A stretch of DNA of 36,123 bases from a virus: positions 1-36,123 of the IMG/VR virus record IMGVR_UViG_3300030099_001310; one strand, written 5' to 3'. The position numbers and the translations under genes are program-made. Every line of letters starts with the position of its first letter. Position 1 is the stretch's first letter. The notes beneath the pieces were generated by a model that was not told the origin of the DNA, did not search any database, and saw nothing but the letters and a program-made list of their open reading frames with translations. Below, in pieces: positions 10,639 to 24,303 of the stretch.

Positions 10639-11117
10639 AGTTAAGTAATAGCTTTACCTTATCAGAAATGTTAAGAAGTAATACAGCCTCTAGGCTAGGA
10701 ATTGATGAACAATTTAACCCATCAAAAGAGGTTATTGATAATTTAACTAGATTATGTAGAAAGGTATTACAACCTATTAGAGATAGTTTAGAGATGCCTG
10801 TAAGGGTTACTAGTGGTTATAGATGTGAAGAGTTAAATAAATCGATTGGAGGTAGTTCTAAAAGCCAACATGTAAAAGGTGAGGCTGTTGATATTGAATT
10901 ATGGATAAGGGGAAAAGAAAAGAATGCTATTTTATTAGATGAAATAATTAATTTATCATTTAGGGGTGAGATAGAATTCGACCAATTAATAATAGAGTAC
11001 CCTGTTAATGATGTTCCAAAGTGGATACATATTTCATACAGTGATAAAAATAGAAATCAGGTATTAATAGCAGAAAAAGTAAAAGGTAAAACAGTTTATA
11101 AAAAAGCGAATCAATGA
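10635..11117 (+). CDS. Endolysin, M15 D-Ala-D-Ala peptidase family
   Basis: A 160-aa zinc peptidase that would cut peptide crosslinks of host peptidoglycan. The family motif S-x-H-x(2)-G-x-A-x-D is present as SQHVKGEAVD with zinc ligands His79 and Asp86. The third ligand is His132 in WIHIS, and RVTSGYRCEELN near residue 57 is the usual stretch before the active site (Peptidase_M15_3 type). There is no signal peptide, so export must rely on a holin. It overlaps the genes on both sides by 4 nt, giving a compact membrane protein-endolysin-membrane protein cassette. Confidence 0.9.
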   Translation: MKLSNSFTLSEMLRSNTASRLGIDEQFNPSKEVIDNLTRLCRKVLQPIRDSLEMPVRVTSGYRCEELNKSIGGSSKSQHVKGEAVDIELWIRGKEKNAILLDEIINLSFRGEIEFDQLIIEYPVNDVPKWIHISYSDKNRNQVLIAEKVKGKTVYKKANQ

Positions 11118-11320
11118 AAAAGTTTATAAATATTGCAAAGGGATTTTTAAAGAAAGGAGAGATTGTTAAAAATACTGTTGAGGGTATTGAAAAGATTGGA
11201 AAAGTAAAGGTAAGTAAGAAGAAGATTGTACTAGGTATAATAATTGTTTTAGCTATCTTAGTACTTGCTGGGGTGATTAGTGAAGAAACTTTTATTGAGT
11301 TGTTTAAAGAGATAAGTTAG
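11114..11320 (+). CDS. Small membrane protein, candidate holin
   Basis: A 68-aa protein with a basic N-terminal half (many Lys, about residues 1-37), one strongly hydrophobic segment (about 38-56, KIVLGIIIVLAILVLAGVI) and a short acidic tail. It overlaps the endolysin stop by 4 nt in ATGA and is the last gene before two tandem terminators. The size, single membrane helix and position suggest a class III-like holin or pinholin. No sequence family is recognised, so the role is inference. Confidence 0.6.
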   Translation: MKKFINIAKGFLKKGEIVKNTVEGIEKIGKVKVSKKKIVLGIIIVLAILVLAGVISEETFIELFKEIS

Positions 11321-11328
11321 GATTTTCC

Positions 11329-11356
11329 AGCCTCTTCTGAGGCTTTTGTTTGTTTT
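11329..11356 (+). terminator. First of two tandem terminators after lysis genes
   Basis: AGCCTC (11329-11334) pairs with GAGGCT (11339-11344) around a TTCT loop and is followed by a T/G-rich stretch. It is the weaker of the pair because its T-run is broken by G. Confidence 0.6.
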
Positions 11357-11361
11357 GTTTA

Positions 11362-11388
11362 GGAGGGTTTGTTACCCTCCTTTTTTTT
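11362..11388 (+). terminator. Second tandem terminator, end of late region
   Basis: GGAGGGT (11362-11368) pairs perfectly with ACCCTCC (11374-11380) around a 5-nt loop, followed by eight T. Two terminators in a row mark the border between late structural/lysis genes and the early region. Confidence 0.92.
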
Positions 11389-11427
11389 GCCATAAAAATA
11401 AATATTAAAAAAATATTATATCTACTA

Positions 11428-11458
11428 TTGTGGTATTAAAAAATTAATATTATCTTTG
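11428..11458 (+). promoter_or_regulatory. Bacteroidota-type promoter of the early operon
   Basis: TATCTTTG at 11451-11458 matches the -7 consensus TAnnTTTG exactly. A TTG lies at 11428-11430 with a 20-bp spacer. A GTATTAAAAAATTA stretch in the spacer is shared with the promoter at 15859-15886. The leader to the ATG at 11499 is about 40 nt and A/C-rich (repeated CAAA/ACAA), with no Shine-Dalgarno sequence. Standing right after tandem terminators, it is the best candidate for the first early promoter. Confidence 0.75.
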
Positions 11459-16721: not shown

Positions 16722-17183
16722 ATGATTTACTCCGATAACGACCTTTATAAAGCCTTTACTCTATTTGAGCAAGGCTTTTCTTATTTTGATGTTACAAACT
16801 ACTTTAAAAAAAATAATTTAAGCCTTTTTGATAAACAAAAAATAGAATTAATAATTGACGCTATTTTATCTCATTATCAAATAACAGAAAAAGAATTTAT
16901 ATCCAGAAGCAGACGTAGGCATTTAGTAACTGCTAGAGGTATATTTTACTATTTAAGCAGAAATCTAACTAAAAACAGTACAGTATTAATTGGTAGAAGG
17001 GTTAATCGTGACCATGCAACCGTATTAAATGGTTATAAGGTCATAGAGGGTTATCTTCAGTTTAATATCGATGGTATGAAGAAAGATATTGAAAATGTAA
17101 CTAAGATTTTTAATGCTTATATTGATGCTAAGAATAAACAGAAAAATCAGTTAATTAAACAGGTATGCACAGAGAAGAGTTAG
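16722..17183 (+). CDS. DnaA domain IV-like DNA-binding protein
   Basis: A 153-aa protein that resembles only the DNA-binding domain IV of the bacterial initiator DnaA. Residues 40-110 contain ITEKEFISRSRRRHLVTARGIFYYLSR, corresponding to the basic helix and AR-x-I-x-x-YL of DnaA, and then RRVNRDHATVLNGYKVI with Asn95-Arg96-Asp97-His98-Ala-Thr-Val at 95-101, the counterpart of the GGRDHTTV signature that contacts the DnaA box. There is no ATPase domain, so it cannot hydrolyse ATP like DnaA. It probably binds the phage origin or host DnaA boxes. A degenerate paralogue follows with a 19-nt overlap and then the initiator gene carrying iterons. Confidence 0.75.
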   Translation: MIYSDNDLYKAFTLFEQGFSYFDVTNYFKKNNLSLFDKQKIELIIDAILSHYQITEKEFISRSRRRHLVTARGIFYYLSRNLTKNSTVLIGRRVNRDHATVLNGYKVIEGYLQFNIDGMKKDIENVTKIFNAYIDAKNKQKNQLIKQVCTEKS

Positions 17184-17467
17184 ATTTTTTAAAACTCGTA
17201 ATTATGAGTTATTTTGATTTAGATTCAAAAGATTTTTTTTTTAAATCAAGATTAAATAATATTGTATACGCTAGAAGAATATTTTTTTATCTTGCTGAGG
17301 TTCATCTAGAAAAAAAACAAATTACAATTTCTAAATATTTAAAATGTAAAGCTAGTTCTGTTAGCTTTGGTAAGAATCATATTCAAAAATTATTAAACTC
17401 AGAGGATAAAGAATTAATAAATGATTTAAGGGAAATAAAAAAACTATTAAGTAATAATGTCAAATAA
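17165..17467 (+). CDS. Second, divergent DnaA domain IV-like protein
   Basis: A 100-aa protein that repeats the layout of its upstream neighbour: FDLDSKDFFFKSRLNNIVYARRIFFYLAE corresponds to the ITEKEFISRSRRRHLVTARGIFYYLSR segment, followed by an ISKYLKCKASSVSFGKNHIQKLL stretch in place of the RDHATV helix. The signature Asp-His is lost, so it probably recognises a different sequence or has become a partner subunit. It overlaps the genes before and after by 19 and 11 nt. The pair looks like a local duplication. Confidence 0.6.
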   Translation: MHREELDFLKLVIMSYFDLDSKDFFFKSRLNNIVYARRIFFYLAEVHLEKKQITISKYLKCKASSVSFGKNHIQKLLNSEDKELINDLREIKKLLSNNVK

Positions 17468-18215
17468 AAAGGATAGCTACTGGTTCAGACATGATAGTTC
17501 TGCTGGTAGAGGATTAAAACTAAGAAAAATACAATATTTATACGGTCATTGGGGAAAAGGGATATATTGGGATGTAGTTGAGATATTAAGGGATTCAGCA
17601 AGTTATAGCCATAGTGCTGATGAGTTTGATTTGAAAATGTTAGCAGATTTAATTGGTTGTAAAGATTCTGATAAGTTTTTAGAATGGTATCAGGATTGTG
17701 TAAAATTCAACTTACTTGCTGAGGATAAAAAAAGATTTTTTTCACCTGCTTTGAGCAGAGTTATGGGAGTCTGGGATAGTAAAAAAGAAAATGGTAAAAA
17801 AGGAGGCAGACCTAAGAAAGAAAAAACCGAAACAAAACCTAAATTAAACCTAAACGAAACCGAAATAAAACCTAAATTAAACCGAAATAAAACCGAATCA
17901 AAAGCTAATCGAAACCATAAGATAATAGAACATAACAGAATAGAATATAATAATATAGATAATAAGATAGAAAAGATATTAAAAAGGTTTTCTGAAACTG
18001 ATTACAAACAGAATGAAAGAATTTATAAAACAAATAAAGATGAATTAATTAAACATCTAGAAAGATTTTTAGAAATTAAAAAAGATTCTGAAGAATTTAG
18101 AAACAAACAATACGGGAATATTATATCTTGGTTTTGGAATTGGTGTAATTCAACATCCAAACCAAAAGAAACAAACAACAACACAGCAGCTCCATGGATA
18201 GAAGGGAGCAAATAA
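17457..18215 (+). CDS. Replication initiator, DUF4373-type, with origin repeats in the gene
   Basis: A 252-aa protein. Residues 5-100 match the DUF4373 (Lin1244/Lin1753-type) N-terminal domain: YWFRHDSSAGRGLKLRKIQYLYGHWGKGIYWDVVEILRDS. Such proteins are phage replication initiators or helicase-loader organisers with a winged-helix DNA-binding domain. A KKGGRPKKEK AT-hook-like basic patch lies near 118. Residues about 123-155 are low complexity (KPKLNLNETEI, KPKLNRNKTES), encoded by the 11-bp DNA repeats. The C-terminal domain (about 175-252) includes YGNIISWFWNWC. The arrangement resembles lambda O, where the initiator gene contains the origin it binds. The helicase gene starts at the next base. 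Confidence 0.75.
   Translation: MSNKKDSYWFRHDSSAGRGLKLRKIQYLYGHWGKGIYWDVVEILRDSASYSHSADEFDLKMLADLIGCKDSDKFLEWYQDCVKFNLLAEDKKRFFSPALSRVMGVWDSKKENGKKGGRPKKEKTETKPKLNLNETEIKPKLNRNKTESKANRNHKIIEHNRIEYNNIDNKIEKILKRFSETDYKQNERIYKTNKDELIKHLERFLEIKKDSEEFRNKQYGNIISWFWNWCNSTSKPKETNNNTAAPWIEGSK
17824..17922 (+). repeat. Nine tandem 11-bp iterons, probable replication origin
   Basis: Nine head-to-tail 11-bp units start at 17824, 17835, 17846, 17857, 17868, 17879, 17890, 17901 and 17912. The first seven begin AAACC; the consensus is AAACC(G/T)AAA(T/C)N. The last two are degenerate (AAAGCTAATCG, AAACCATAAGA). A 27-bp block at 17824-17850 recurs at 17857-17883 with one mismatch. The period is about one helical turn, so binding sites would lie on one face of the DNA. 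Because 11 is not a multiple of 3, the codons repeat only every 33 bp, so protein repeats alone do not force an 11-bp period. Confidence 0.8.
17917..17990. other. AT-rich segment next to iterons, candidate DNA-unwinding element
   Basis: Directly after the iterons come about 70 bases almost without C and with few G, rich in ATAA, ATAG and TATAATAATATAG words. An AT-rich region flanking an iteron array is the normal layout of iteron origins. The gene is coding here, so the composition also reflects the low-complexity linker of the initiator protein. Confidence 0.55.
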
Positions 18216-19196
18216 ATGGAAAATTATTATTCAAAACCTTTTCACGAGCTAGAAGGCTTAGATGAAATTAGATTAGGCAAAGTTGATACAGGCTTAGGCA
18301 TAGGTGTAGATGCTTTTGATAATCATATCAAATGGAAGCAAGGACAGTTTAACATGGTAAATGGGCATGATAATGTTGGTAAAACAGATGTGCTACTGTG
18401 GTACTTTGTATGCATGAGCAAATTGCATGGCAAAAAACATCTTATCTACTCTTCTGAGAATACTGTTAGATCACAAGTATTTAAAATATTTAACTTTTGG
18501 ACTGGTAAAAGATTAGACAAAGATTATCTAGTAGATGATAAAGGTTTCCAACATACCCTAAATGAGATTAGTGATTACTTTGAGTTTATACCAAACAATA
18601 AACGTTATACGGCTTATGATATTTTAGATTTAGCAAGTAAAAAACATCATGATGGGCTTTTAGTTGATCCTTTTAACTCGTTAATGGTAGAAACATCTAA
18701 CAAACATCAAGAAGATTATGATATTTGTGCTAATCTTAGAATCTTTGGAGAGCAAAACAATACAAGTGTTTTTGTAAATGCTCATTTAGTTACTCAAGCA
18801 GCTAGAAACAGATACCCAAAAGACCACATCTACGAGGGGCATTTATCAGCACCTGAAAAAGCCGATACAGAAGGAGGTCAAAAATTTGCAAATAGAGCCG
18901 ATGATTTTTGGACTATTCACAGAATGACGCAACATAGTGAAAGATGGAACATAGGAGAGTTACATGTTAGGAAAGTTAAAGAAACTATTACAGGAGGTTG
19001 CGTTACTCCTAGAGATAAACCAATTGAATTAAGATGGGTAAATCATTGTGCTTATTTAATCGATAATCAAAACCCACTAGAAAAAACTTATGATAAAAAG
19101 CCTGAGCAGTTAGATATGCTTGAAAAAACAAACCAACATAAAAACATGTCTAGAATGAGCTTTGGAGTTGAAGAAGGAGATGATTTACCATTTTAA
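18216..19196 (+). CDS. DnaB-type replicative helicase (RecA-fold, SF4) with SSB-like tail
   Basis: A 326-aa ATPase corresponding to the C-terminal motor domain of DnaB/gp4 helicases, without a primase or DnaB N-terminal domain. Walker A is GHDNVGKT (50-57), the catalytic Glu is in YSSEN (Glu81), Walker B is LLVDPFN (Asp151), and FVNAHLVTQ (186-194) matches motif H3. It would unwind the phage origin. The last residues, EGDDLPF, match a bacterial SSB tip and the tail of the small SSB-like protein ending at 14174. This is not a normal helicase ending. It lies one base after the initiator gene, so loading is likely by that protein. Confidence 0.8.
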   Translation: MENYYSKPFHELEGLDEIRLGKVDTGLGIGVDAFDNHIKWKQGQFNMVNGHDNVGKTDVLLWYFVCMSKLHGKKHLIYSSENTVRSQVFKIFNFWTGKRLDKDYLVDDKGFQHTLNEISDYFEFIPNNKRYTAYDILDLASKKHHDGLLVDPFNSLMVETSNKHQEDYDICANLRIFGEQNNTSVFVNAHLVTQAARNRYPKDHIYEGHLSAPEKADTEGGQKFANRADDFWTIHRMTQHSERWNIGELHVRKVKETITGGCVTPRDKPIELRWVNHCAYLIDNQNPLEKTYDKKPEQLDMLEKTNQHKNMSRMSFGVEEGDDLPF

Positions 19197-19819: not shown

Positions 19820-21985
19820 ATGGATTATCAAGAGTTCTTAAAAACAAAAGAAAAAAGCCATATATCAAGCGGATTTGATATAGACGAAAAACAACTAAAT
19901 AAAAACCTATTTGACTTTCAAAAATATACTGTAAAAATAGCACTTAAAAAAGGTAGATTTGCTGTATTTGCTGATTGCGGTTTAGGTAAAACATTAATGC
20001 AATTAAGTTGGGCTGAAGAAGTATTTAATTACACAAATAAAAAAGTTTTATTACTAGCTCCATTAGCAGTAGTTGAACAAACTAAAAGAGAAGCTAAAAA
20101 GTTTAATATTAACTTAGATAGCTTTGATATTACAAACTATGAACAGCTTAAAAATACTGATACATCTATTTATTCAGGTGTAGTATTAGATGAATCTAGT
20201 ATCTTAAAAGGGAGAGATGGTAAGCTATCAAGGTTTATTATTGATACCTTTAAAATGACTCCTTATAAGTTAGCTTGTACTGCTACACCTTCACCTAATG
20301 ACCACATGGAACTAGGGCAGCATGTAGAGTTTTTAGGATTTGATACGTATGACAATATGAAATCTATGTTTTTTGTTCAAGACCAAAAAATTAAAAGTAA
20401 TGATAAGTGGAGATTAAGAAAACATGCAAAAGATGACTTCTGGAAATATACTTGTACTTGGAGTATTTCAATAGATAATCCTAAAACATTAGGCTTTAAT
20501 CATGATGGTTATGATTTACCTGAGATAGAATATATCGAACATTTAATACCAGTAGAAAATAATACAAATAATCTTTTTGGTGATATTGCTGTTTCGGCAA
20601 CTGATTTACACAAAGATCTAAAAAGAAGTTTAAATAAAAGAATAGCTAAAACTAGTGATATTGTTAATGAAAATCCTAATGAACAGTTTATAATTTGGAC
20701 ATTAAAAAATGATGAAGCTAAAGAATTAAATAAGTTATTAGTTGATAGTATTAATGTTCAAGGATCTGATAAGCCAGAAGTAAAAGCTAATAATTTAAAT
20801 GGATTTGCTAGAAAAGAATTTAAAAGATTAATAACTAAAACATCAATAGCATCATTTGGTATGAATTACCAACAATGCCATAACATGATATTTACAAGTT
20901 ATGATTTTAAGTTTGAGCAATTTTATCAAGCTGTTAGGAGATGTTATAGATTTGGACAAAAGCAAAAAGTAAAAGTTCATTTATTAGTACCTGAATCACA
21001 AAAGAATGTGAGAAAGTCAATATTAGAAAAAGAAAAAAAACATAAAGAAAAACAAAAAGAAATGGCAAAATACTCAAGCAATTCAAATTACAAATCTGAA
21101 GTAGAAATAATAACCGTTAAAGAAAAAGAGGTTAAAGAGAAAAACTATTGGCTTATAAATGGTGATTGTAATGAAGAAATAAAAAAAATTAAAAGTAATA
21201 GTGTAGATTATTCATTTTTTTCACCTCCATTTAAAGACTTATACACTTACTCTGATGACCCTAGAGATTTATCAAATGTAACTAGTGACAATGAGTTTTA
21301 TAATCATTTTAGATATTTAGTTCCTGAGTTGTTTAGAGTTTTAAAAAATGGAAGGTTATTATCTATGCATATTCAACAGGGAACTACATCAATTGGTAAA
21401 GATGGTTTTTTATCAATAGTAGATTTTAGAGGAGAGTTAATTAGATTATTTCAAGAAAGTGGTTTTATATTTCATGCTGAAAAAATGATAAGAAAGAATC
21501 CACAACTAGCAGCAGTTAGAACTAAAAATGTACAATTAATGCATGGACAAACTAAAAGAGATAGTTCAATTAATAGACCTGGACTAGCTGATTATGTTAT
21601 AACATTTAGAAAGCCTGGAGATAATGAAGTTAAAATAAAAAATGATATTGATTTTGATTTATGGTGTAAACTAGCAGAGCCAGTATGGATGGATATTAAT
21701 GAGTCTGATGTTATTTCTAATTTTAGAAAAGCAAAAGCTAATAAAGATGAAAAACACATGACTCCTACTCAGTTAAGTGTTATTAGAAACTGTTATTTGT
21801 TATGGTCTAATGTGGGCGATGTTTGTTTTAGTCCTTTTGGTGGGGTTGGTTCTGAAGGATGCCAAGCTTTAAAAATGGATAGAAAAAGCATAAATATAGA
21901 ATTGAAAAACAGTTATTTTAATATGAATGTACATAATCATAAAGCTTTTGATTTAGAAAAAAACTCAGTTTTAACGTTATTCTAA
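19820..21985 (+). CDS. Fused SF2 (SNF2-like) helicase and DNA methyltransferase
   Basis: A 721-aa two-part protein. Residues 30-400 are an SF2 ATPase: Walker A ADCGLGKT (51-58), DESS box (Asp124-Glu125) in place of DEAH, TAT (154-156), and motif VI RRCYRFGQKQKVKVH near 372. A charged linker (about 400-440) follows. Residues about 440-721 are an amino-methyltransferase with a SPPF catalytic motif near 466 and the cofactor loop FSPFGGVGSEG near 670. Motif IV before motif I means beta-class order. SPPF is closer to N4-cytosine than to N6-adenine enzymes, but the base is not certain. No nuclease motif is visible, so this is not a full restriction enzyme. It may self-methylate phage DNA while translocating. 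Confidence 0.8.
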   Translation: MDYQEFLKTKEKSHISSGFDIDEKQLNKNLFDFQKYTVKIALKKGRFAVFADCGLGKTLMQLSWAEEVFNYTNKKVLLLAPLAVVEQTKREAKKFNINLDSFDITNYEQLKNTDTSIYSGVVLDESSILKGRDGKLSRFIIDTFKMTPYKLACTATPSPNDHMELGQHVEFLGFDTYDNMKSMFFVQDQKIKSNDKWRLRKHAKDDFWKYTCTWSISIDNPKTLGFNHDGYDLPEIEYIEHLIPVENNTNNLFGDIAVSATDLHKDLKRSLNKRIAKTSDIVNENPNEQFIIWTLKNDEAKELNKLLVDSINVQGSDKPEVKANNLNGFARKEFKRLITKTSIASFGMNYQQCHNMIFTSYDFKFEQFYQAVRRCYRFGQKQKVKVHLLVPESQKNVRKSILEKEKKHKEKQKEMAKYSSNSNYKSEVEIITVKEKEVKEKNYWLINGDCNEEIKKIKSNSVDYSFFSPPFKDLYTYSDDPRDLSNVTSDNEFYNHFRYLVPELFRVLKNGRLLSMHIQQGTTSIGKDGFLSIVDFRGELIRLFQESGFIFHAEKMIRKNPQLAAVRTKNVQLMHGQTKRDSSINRPGLADYVITFRKPGDNEVKIKNDIDFDLWCKLAEPVWMDINESDVISNFRKAKANKDEKHMTPTQLSVIRNCYLLWSNVGDVCFSPFGGVGSEGCQALKMDRKSINIELKNSYFNMNVHNHKAFDLEKNSVLTLF

Positions 21986-22547: not shown

Positions 22548-22898
22548 ATGGATAAACATTTTAAAGCAAATAAAGATGCTGCAAGTAAAGCAGGTAAAAA
22601 AAGCTCTAGAAAAGGTACTCCTAATAAGACTACAAAAGAGCTTAGAGATTCTTTTCAGTTGTTTGTTGAAAATAATGTTAGTCAGTTTCAAGATTGGATT
22701 GAGCAAGTAGCGGAAAGCAATCCAGCAAAAGCTATTGAGTTAGTTACTAGTTTAGGTGAGTATATTTTACCTAAATTATCAAGAACGGAAATAGATGCAG
22801 ATGTAAAAACAGAAAACAAAACAGAAATAGATTACAGTAAATTAGATGAGTCAACACTTAAAGACATTATTAAACAGCTTAGACCTGATAAAAGCTGA
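22548..22898 (+). CDS. Putative terminase small subunit
   Basis: A 116-aa basic protein. The N-terminal part contains KAGKKSSRKGTPNKTTKELRDSF, a pattern typical of small phage proteins encoded just before terminase large subunits. The central helices (about 40-70) and the ILPKLSRTEIDADV stretch fit the same group. Terminase small subunits bind the packaging start site and control the large subunit. Its last 53 nt overlap the large subunit gene. No classical TerS domain is strongly visible, so the role rests on pattern and position. Confidence 0.65.
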   Translation: MDKHFKANKDAASKAGKKSSRKGTPNKTTKELRDSFQLFVENNVSQFQDWIEQVAESNPAKAIELVTSLGEYILPKLSRTEIDADVKTENKTEIDYSKLDESTLKDIIKQLRPDKS

Positions 22899-24303
22899 AT
22901 CTGAATTATATCGTATTTCTTTCTATGAATTTACTTTAGAGGCTTTTAAAACTATCCATAACGGTCAAGAACTTACTCCTAACTGGCATATTAAATACCT
23001 TTGTGAAAGACTACAAGAAGAAGCCATAAGAATAGTAGAAGGAAAGCCTAGAAATAAACATCTTTTAATTAATGTACCTCCTAGAACTTTAAAAAGTGAA
23101 TTAGTAAATGTTTTTTTTAGTGTCTATTGTTGGATTCTTAAAGATTCTATTCAGTTTATTAGCTCATCTTATTCAGCAAGCCTATCAATAACATTATCAA
23201 CTCAATCAAGAAGATTAATAGAATCTGATTGGTTTATTAGTCACTTTCCTAATGTTAAGTTATCCAAAGATGAGAATACTAAAAGTAGATACACAACTAC
23301 TAATAGCGGTTTAAGATACAGTACTAGTACAGGTGGAACAGTAACAGGAATGGGAGCTGATATTATTGTGATTGATGATCCACAAAACCCTCAACTAGCA
23401 CGCTCAGATGTTGAAAGAGATAACGCTAATAGATTCTTTAATGAAACACTTAGAAGCCGTTTAAACAATCCTGATATAGGTGTTTTTATTGTTATAATGC
23501 AAAGACTACACGAAAATGATTTAACAGGAATGTTATTAGAGAAAGAGCCTCATAATTGGGAGTATATTTGTTTACCTGCTGAACTATCTGATATTGTAAG
23601 ACCAAAAGAATTAAAAAAGAATTATGTAGATGGTTTACTGTTTCCACAAAGGTTATCTAAAGCAACATTAGAGAGTTTTAAACTAGGTTTAGGGAGTTAT
23701 GGTTATTCAGGTCAATATTCACAAGTACCATCTCCTAGTGAAGGAGGTATTTTTAAAGGTCATTGGTTTAACATCATAAAAGAGTTACCTCATAATCTAA
23801 GAGCCTCTGATTTAAAATGGGATTTCTATTTAGATACTGCTTATACTAATAAACAAGAGAATGATGCAACTGCTATGCTATGTGCTGCTTTCCATAATAA
23901 TGATTTATACATTAGAGAGGTTAGAGCAGTTAGATTAGAGTTCCCAGAACTAATAAAAGAAATAGAAAGCTTTGCAATGATAAACGGTTATACAAATAGA
24001 AGTAGAATCTATGTAGAGCCTAAAGCAAGTGGAAAAAGTATAGTACAGATGCTTAAAAGGTCAACAGGCTTAAATGTAATGGAAGACAAGCCACCAGTTC
24101 AGGATAAAGTAAGCAGGGCATCTAGTGTATCAGCATTTGTTGAAAGTGGTAGAGTTAGCCTGTTAGATGGCAGATACATAGATAGTTTCTTAAATGAGCT
24201 AAAAGCTTTTCCTAATGGCAATCATGATGACCAAGTTGATGTATTAGTTATGGCAATTGACAAGAATACAAACAGGAGAAAGAAAGTTAGAGCAATAGCA
24301 TAA
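22846..24303 (+). CDS. Terminase large subunit
   Basis: A 485-aa packaging motor and nuclease. The N-terminal ATPase has a Walker A-like NVPPRTLKSE (77-85) and Walker B IIVIDDP (173-179) with Asp177-Asp178. The coupling region VFIVIMQRLHENDLTGMLL follows. The RNase H-like nuclease shows YLDTAYT (near 328), an EPKASG stretch, and NHDDQVDVLVMAI near 460 with the metal-binding Asp residues. The ATG at 22846 overlaps the previous gene by 53 nt; there is no other in-frame ATG before the conserved part. The packaging type (cos or pac) cannot be told from sequence. A promoter follows the gene. Confidence 0.92.
   Translation: MSQHLKTLLNSLDLIKAESELYRISFYEFTLEAFKTIHNGQELTPNWHIKYLCERLQEEAIRIVEGKPRNKHLLINVPPRTLKSELVNVFFSVYCWILKDSIQFISSSYSASLSITLSTQSRRLIESDWFISHFPNVKLSKDENTKSRYTTTNSGLRYSTSTGGTVTGMGADIIVIDDPQNPQLARSDVERDNANRFFNETLRSRLNNPDIGVFIVIMQRLHENDLTGMLLEKEPHNWEYICLPAELSDIVRPKELKKNYVDGLLFPQRLSKATLESFKLGLGSYGYSGQYSQVPSPSEGGIFKGHWFNIIKELPHNLRASDLKWDFYLDTAYTNKQENDATAMLCAAFHNNDLYIREVRAVRLEFPELIKEIESFAMINGYTNRSRIYVEPKASGKSIVQMLKRSTGLNVMEDKPPVQDKVSRASSVSAFVESGRVSLLDGRYIDSFLNELKAFPNGNHDDQVDVLVMAIDKNTNRRKKVRAIA

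Follow-up and report, generated by a model that had tools for sequence, protein, structure and literature searches.

Does a tandem array of 11-bp units inside the coding sequence of a phage initiator gene mark the place where replication starts, or do the repeats follow from the protein that the gene encodes? We have addressed this question for a virus contig of 36,123 bp, all of which was analysed and is referred to here as the window. The contig carries a 99-bp repeat at its ends and therefore probably corresponds to a complete circular map; its + strand carries every main gene. From the analyses described below, we consider it probable (roughly 0.85, in our estimate) that the locus is an in-gene theta origin, at which the initiator would bind the repeats, an adjoining AT-rich array would melt, and a helicase would be recruited through the C-terminal domain of the initiator.

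The initiator gene (17457..18215, + strand) encodes a protein of 252 aa, and was assigned through matches to the Lin1244_N and PHROG 2562 profiles. The N-terminal part of the protein matched Lin1244_N (PF14297, DUF4373) at 23.6 bits, just below the curated Pfam cut-off of 25, and the relative L094 scored above that cut-off, at 26.9 bits; the whole 252-aa sequence matched PHROG 2562 (replication initiation protein) with an E of 3e-7. The protein is laid out as an N-terminal winged-helix domain, a KGGRPKK tail, a linker encoded by the repeats, and a C-terminal domain. Structure prediction modelled the N-terminal domain as a winged helix (pLDDT 82); the full-length model was poor (pLDDT 51) and was left unused. 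Matches of the N-terminal model to solved structures were generic winged-helix matches only: 4pql_A (Z 6.9) and 4pt7_B (Z 6.6, title 'Structure of initiator') were among many tied entries of this fold, and the titles of two tied entries name an initiator and the N-terminal domain of a DNA-binding protein. Directly 3' of the initiator gene is a gene for a primase/helicase-like ATPase (18216..19196, + strand; PHROG 18375, E 6e-35), which keeps its place next to the initiator gene in relatives. Upstream are two conserved neighbours on the + strand, a small gene with a DnaA domain-IV-like DNA-binding domain (16722..17183; PF08299, E 2e-19) and a second, more degenerate gene of this type (17165..17467; PF08299, E 1e-7). 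These two genes adjoin, and each has only the DnaA domain-IV-like domain, without the ATPase part. Elsewhere in the window, a single gene of 721 aa (19820-21985) encodes an SNF2-type helicase fused with an N6/N4 DNA methylase domain.

The initial annotation had described nine head-to-tail 11-bp units from position 17824 onwards, followed by about 70 AT-rich bases, all within the initiator gene, and our examination confirmed this description. The nine iterons (17824..~17922, + strand; consensus AAACCKAAAYN) start at 17824, 17835, 17846, 17857, 17868, 17879, 17890, 17901 and 17912, the array being situated about 370 bp into the gene. Units 1-6 match the consensus exactly, where 0.63 matches were expected from dinucleotide shuffles of the whole window; the seventh unit, AAACCGAATCA, is near the consensus, and the eighth and ninth, AAAGCTAATCG and AAACCATAAGA, are degenerate. 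With a Tandem Repeats Finder score of 130, this was the top tandem array of the window (runner-up, 73). The AT-rich tract (17917..17990, + strand) consists of 5-bp repeats of the AKAAN type and, from its GC content and its period of 5, is a probable DNA unwinding element; the 69-bp AT-rich stretch (17922-17990) is 16% GC, which places it among the lowest 1.7% of 69-bp windows in the genome.

Nine 11-bp copies amount to an 11-aa repeat that is present three times, and a 33-bp period alone could therefore be driven by the protein. We therefore compared the array with synonymous versions of itself, in which the same protein was recoded 5000 times with the codon usage of the phage. Identity of the array at a lag of 11 was 0.74 (67 of 91 positions), compared with a mean of 51.2 positions (sd 3.9, maximum 63) for the recoded sequences, and the observed 11-bp and 22-bp identities were reached by none of the 5000. 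With a stricter null, in which codons were shuffled within the region, p was 0.014 for lag 11 and 0.004 for lag 22. The protein repeat accounts for the 33-bp period, but not for the 11-bp and 22-bp periods; since the 11-bp identity exceeds that of every synonymous recoding, it does not arise as a side effect of the protein repeat, in agreement with the initial annotation. The variable base of the unit points the same way. A T at base 6, if placed in codon position 1, would create a TAA stop, and this combination occurred in 0 of 110 units across all homologues. Because T at base 6 avoids codon position 1, the G/T wobble is best read as a coding frame that accommodates a fixed DNA site.

To learn how far the layout extends, we gathered homologues solely by N-terminal protein sequence, in three families: the Lin1244_N type of the window, the MAKELPYFQFEPAEY type (FEPAEY below) and DUF6291. 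The seeds for two of the families had been chosen for holding the pattern; the homologues collected with them were not so chosen. After removal of near-duplicates (80% of linker), 9 Lin1244_N-type, 20 FEPAEY-type and 29 DUF6291-type sequences remained. Identity at lag 11 exceeded that of synonymous recodings at p<0.01 in 78% (n=9), 65% (n=20) and 69% (n=29) of these, respectively, percentages that are not independent trials, since this level of duplicate removal leaves shared ancestry inside each family. The excess identity was concentrated at 11, at 22, and at the short periods of the AT-rich arrays and their neighbours, and control coding regions on either side of the linker in the same genes gave 0% at lag 11. 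Exact chains of at least three A[AG]CC cores at period 11 were observed in 118 of 180 homologues; among the other periods, one homologue had such a chain at 12, and there were 0 at 8-10 and 13-15. In the close relatives L006-L013, about six or more of the 11-bp units are kept while the amino acids have changed. Conservation of the period despite amino acid change, which had been suggested as a check on the origin assignment, was thus observed in three initiator families, with the period in the position that it has in the window gene.

In the homologues, the 11-bp array is followed by a second, AT-rich one with a period of either 5 or 6, and this shorter period tracks the N-terminal domain rather than the C-terminal domain; the FEPAEY AT-rich region is poorly delimited by automatic means, so that its 5-bp period rests mainly on the comparison of lags with recodings. 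When profiles of the three N-terminal families were compared, only the tail region aligned, the profiles being shallow. The layout is also present in the cultured phages Cellulophaga phi19:1, Riemerella GRNRAP2 and Nitratiruptor NrS-3, and a primase/helicase gene lies just 3' of the initiator gene in morran9-1 and also in phi19:1, where a single small gene separates the initiator (gp031, record 10713-11456) from the helicase (gp033).

A raw scan of viral sequences for the spaced pattern, with spacings of 12 and 10 as controls, yielded 49 loci with a spacing of 11, none with 10 and 61 with 12; the figure of 49 overstates independent support, as about 26 of these loci are occurrences, within one phage lineage, of the same non-coding (AAACCAAAACC)n array. 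The loci at spacing 12 are nearly all in low-complexity proteins, mostly of the K-P-K type, with one obvious initiator (L084). At spacing 11, the arrays in a long same-strand coding frame are all within initiator-like genes, and nearly always directly follow a GGRPK-like motif (exception, L121). These data also bear on the suggestion that selection acted on the length and charge of a disordered, low-complexity linker and that the 11-bp period is only its by-product. In favour of such a reading, the linker has an 11-aa repeat and abounds in K, N, E, T and P, but the period that low-complexity proteins produce is 12 and not 11, 11 is not divisible by three, and the adjoining coding regions are without signal. 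Together with the failure of synonymous recoding to give the 11-bp period, these observations already contradict the by-product reading, to which we attach almost no credence.

Several variants were encountered in these searches. The (AAACCAAAACC)n array does not fall within an initiator-like gene; it is found, on the minus strand, where a primase/helicase gene has its 3' end (for example L123:9268-9305, with about 25 similar loci among L085-L128), and is possibly another origin with a similar repeat. L087:9760-10338 is a DUF6291-type initiator gene with an 11-bp array whose reading frame stays open only when TGA is taken to encode glycine, and for that reason the host of this phage is probably of the Gracilibacteria/SR1 type. 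The distant FEPAEY-type initiators of L313, L314 and L317, which lack GGRPKK, have different repeats, of the GCGACCGCATT or TCTAGCAATGCTA types, at roughly the same place and with short-period AT-rich arrays adjoining. Among DUF6291-type linkers, those of L236, L241, L270, L294 and L310 have inverted sites (AACCATAGGTT and AACCATTGGTT types) that replace or accompany the direct 11-bp repeats. A link between the KGGRPKK tail and the AACC core was considered: some tail-less arrays have AAGC cores, but the link is not strict, since L155 has the tail with AAGC cores. A collection of species genomes yielded no relatives with the window-type domain and three, distant, of the FEPAEY type; when 345 genomes of the phylum to which L314 belongs were examined, none had the four-unit pattern.

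The strongest evidence for reading the locus as an in-gene origin is, we believe, a natural exchange. L015-L019 have an initiator C-terminal domain and DnaA-like neighbours of the window type, and a downstream helicase with 85-92% protein identity to that of the window, but their N-terminal domain is of the DUF6291 type. We aligned these phages with counterparts of matching background (L013/L017, L012/L016, L010/L015 and L009/L018), and observed that identity is high up to the start codon of the initiator gene, drops over the next 475 bp or so to a level typical of unrelated DNA, and is regained just past the AT-rich repeats; for L013/L017, flanking identity is 90-100% upstream and 80-98% downstream. 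The exchanged block of about 475 bp takes in the iterons and the AT-rich array as well as the N-terminal domain. On the upstream side the DnaA-like genes stay put across the exchange, as does the helicase gene on the downstream side. In the exchanged form the AT-rich period is 6, as in other DUF6291 initiators, rather than 5, and the AACCC sites follow another arrangement, which lacks the 11-bp period. Because the block is exchanged as a whole, the repeats belong with the N-terminal domain.

The same exchange bears on a reading in which the two small DnaA-like proteins, or host DnaA, would be the main proteins to recognize the array, in a complex like that at oriC. Action of the DnaA-like proteins on the repeats had been proposed in the initial annotation, and the two conserved DnaA domain-IV-like genes directly upstream speak for it. 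Yet the array is replaced in phages whose DnaA-like genes are unchanged, which makes these proteins unlikely readers of it; DnaA boxes are at chance level in the window (5 in 36 kb, with 5.9 expected, and no cluster); and tblastn found no DnaA-like genes beside L014, L023 or the cultured phages with the layout. The proposal is thus unsupported, and we judge a DnaA-based reading very unlikely. GC skew, for which a minimum near 17.9 kb had been anticipated, was positive over the whole genome, and the major genes are all on one strand; once detrended, the cumulative skew peaked weakly near 15.7 kb and did not reach a minimum near 17.9 kb. With the skew positive throughout and this minimum missing, GC skew neither supports nor excludes an origin at the array.

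As an in-gene origin, the locus would most likely work as follows. Several copies of the initiator would bind the 11-bp AAACC sites through their N-terminal winged-helix domains; since the period is about one helical turn, the bound proteins would all lie on one face of the helix, along which binding would be cooperative. The iteron-bound initiator would then strain the adjoining tract of AT-rich 5-bp repeats and cause it to melt, and the C-terminal domain would assemble at the melted tract with the helicase encoded directly downstream. The encoded linker would be a hydrophilic spacer, with a sequence mostly dictated by the DNA sites. What the data show is that the repeats exist, that they are constrained as DNA, that relatives conserve them and that they are inherited together with the N-terminal domain; binding, melting, helicase loading and use as the origin are steps that we infer.

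Iterons often serve a control role besides their role at origins, and an array of this kind could serve solely as an operator or incompatibility site; the repeats would then act as an operator or handcuffing site for initiator expression or copy number, with replication starting elsewhere. We consider this unlikely, as the array is well within the gene and not at a promoter, and as an AT-rich short-period array, for which an operator has no need, always follows the iterons and was exchanged together with them. A packaging (pac/cos) site was also considered; nothing favoured it, and the array is about 4.6 kb from the terminase-like gene (22548-24303), whose identity was judged by eye from its sequence.

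If the origin reading is taken more widely, one layout, in which 11-bp iterons of the AACC type precede an AT-rich array with a repeat of 5 or 6 bp, may be common to three N-terminal families that showed no mutual similarity in profile comparison outside their tails. It occurs in phages that infect Bacteroidota and Campylobacterota as well as in the phage that reads TGA as glycine, and the AT period would go with the class of DNA-binding domain. We incline slightly toward this generalization. Were it true, three domain families would recognize one type of site, by common descent or convergence, and for very many uncultured phages the initiator gene would reveal the origin through its linker. 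Initiators of this sort are annotated at best as hypothetical proteins or domains of unknown function. Linkers as odd as KPKLNLNETE, REDKIREDKI and NVNVNDNVN would be translated 11-, 5- and 6-bp DNA repeats; the presence of the 11-bp layout in many phages would offer a simple predictor of the replication start site, and, with repeat type linked to domain class, initiators and origins would form testable pairs. In the literature searched, we found no paper that links these initiator families to an origin, and a single iteron layout across several of them, with an AT period tied to domain class, seems to be unreported there.

An origin within an initiator gene is of a kind already known from pSK41, SPP1 and lambda; it is the breadth of the layout that is notable. 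Three features of an in-gene theta origin are present here: repeats in the coding sequence of the initiator, an adjacent AT-rich region, and an N-terminal domain that is exchanged together with the repeats. In lambda, likewise, iterons and an adjacent AT-rich region are found midway in the O initiator gene, and the N-terminal domain and iterons are specific to each phage; the lambda iterons are four in number and longer than the 11-bp units here, from which the SPP1 repeat unit also differs.

The origin of pSK41 is located centrally within rep, where Rep binds four boxes in its own gene through a winged-helix N-terminal domain, and the Rep linker encoded by the origin is dispensable (PMC5703833). 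In pPR9, a natural exchange of about 500 bp has brought in a phage-type N-terminal domain together with the origin, the C-terminal domain being kept (PMC5703833). The likeness to our phages thus extends from the in-gene origin to the natural swapping, as one block, of N-terminal domain and origin sites. The systems differ in that pSK41 has four Rep boxes, whereas here there are up to nine contiguous 11-bp units and a separate 5-bp AT-rich array, and in that pSK41 is a staphylococcal plasmid of the RepA_N type, whereas our phage carries a helicase gene of its own and has no detected sequence kinship to RepA_N (for which the window protein had no Pfam match, and nothing relevant was found among the sequences of solved structures). 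In SPP1, oriL consists of direct repeats and an AT-rich unwinding element inside gene 38, the gene for the origin-binding protein (PMC6316719). Direct repeats and an AT-rich element within an initiator-type gene are shared with our locus; SPP1 differs in having a second origin (oriR), a separate helicase loader and another initiator family. The resemblance to known iteron origins claimed at the outset is borne out by pSK41 rep and SPP1 gene 38, and the pSK41 in-gene origin, the pPR9 exchange and SPP1 oriL are experimental precedents for the layout here. With the conservation of the period and the cassette of N-terminal domain and repeats, they support the view that the initiator gene of the window contains a probable origin of replication.
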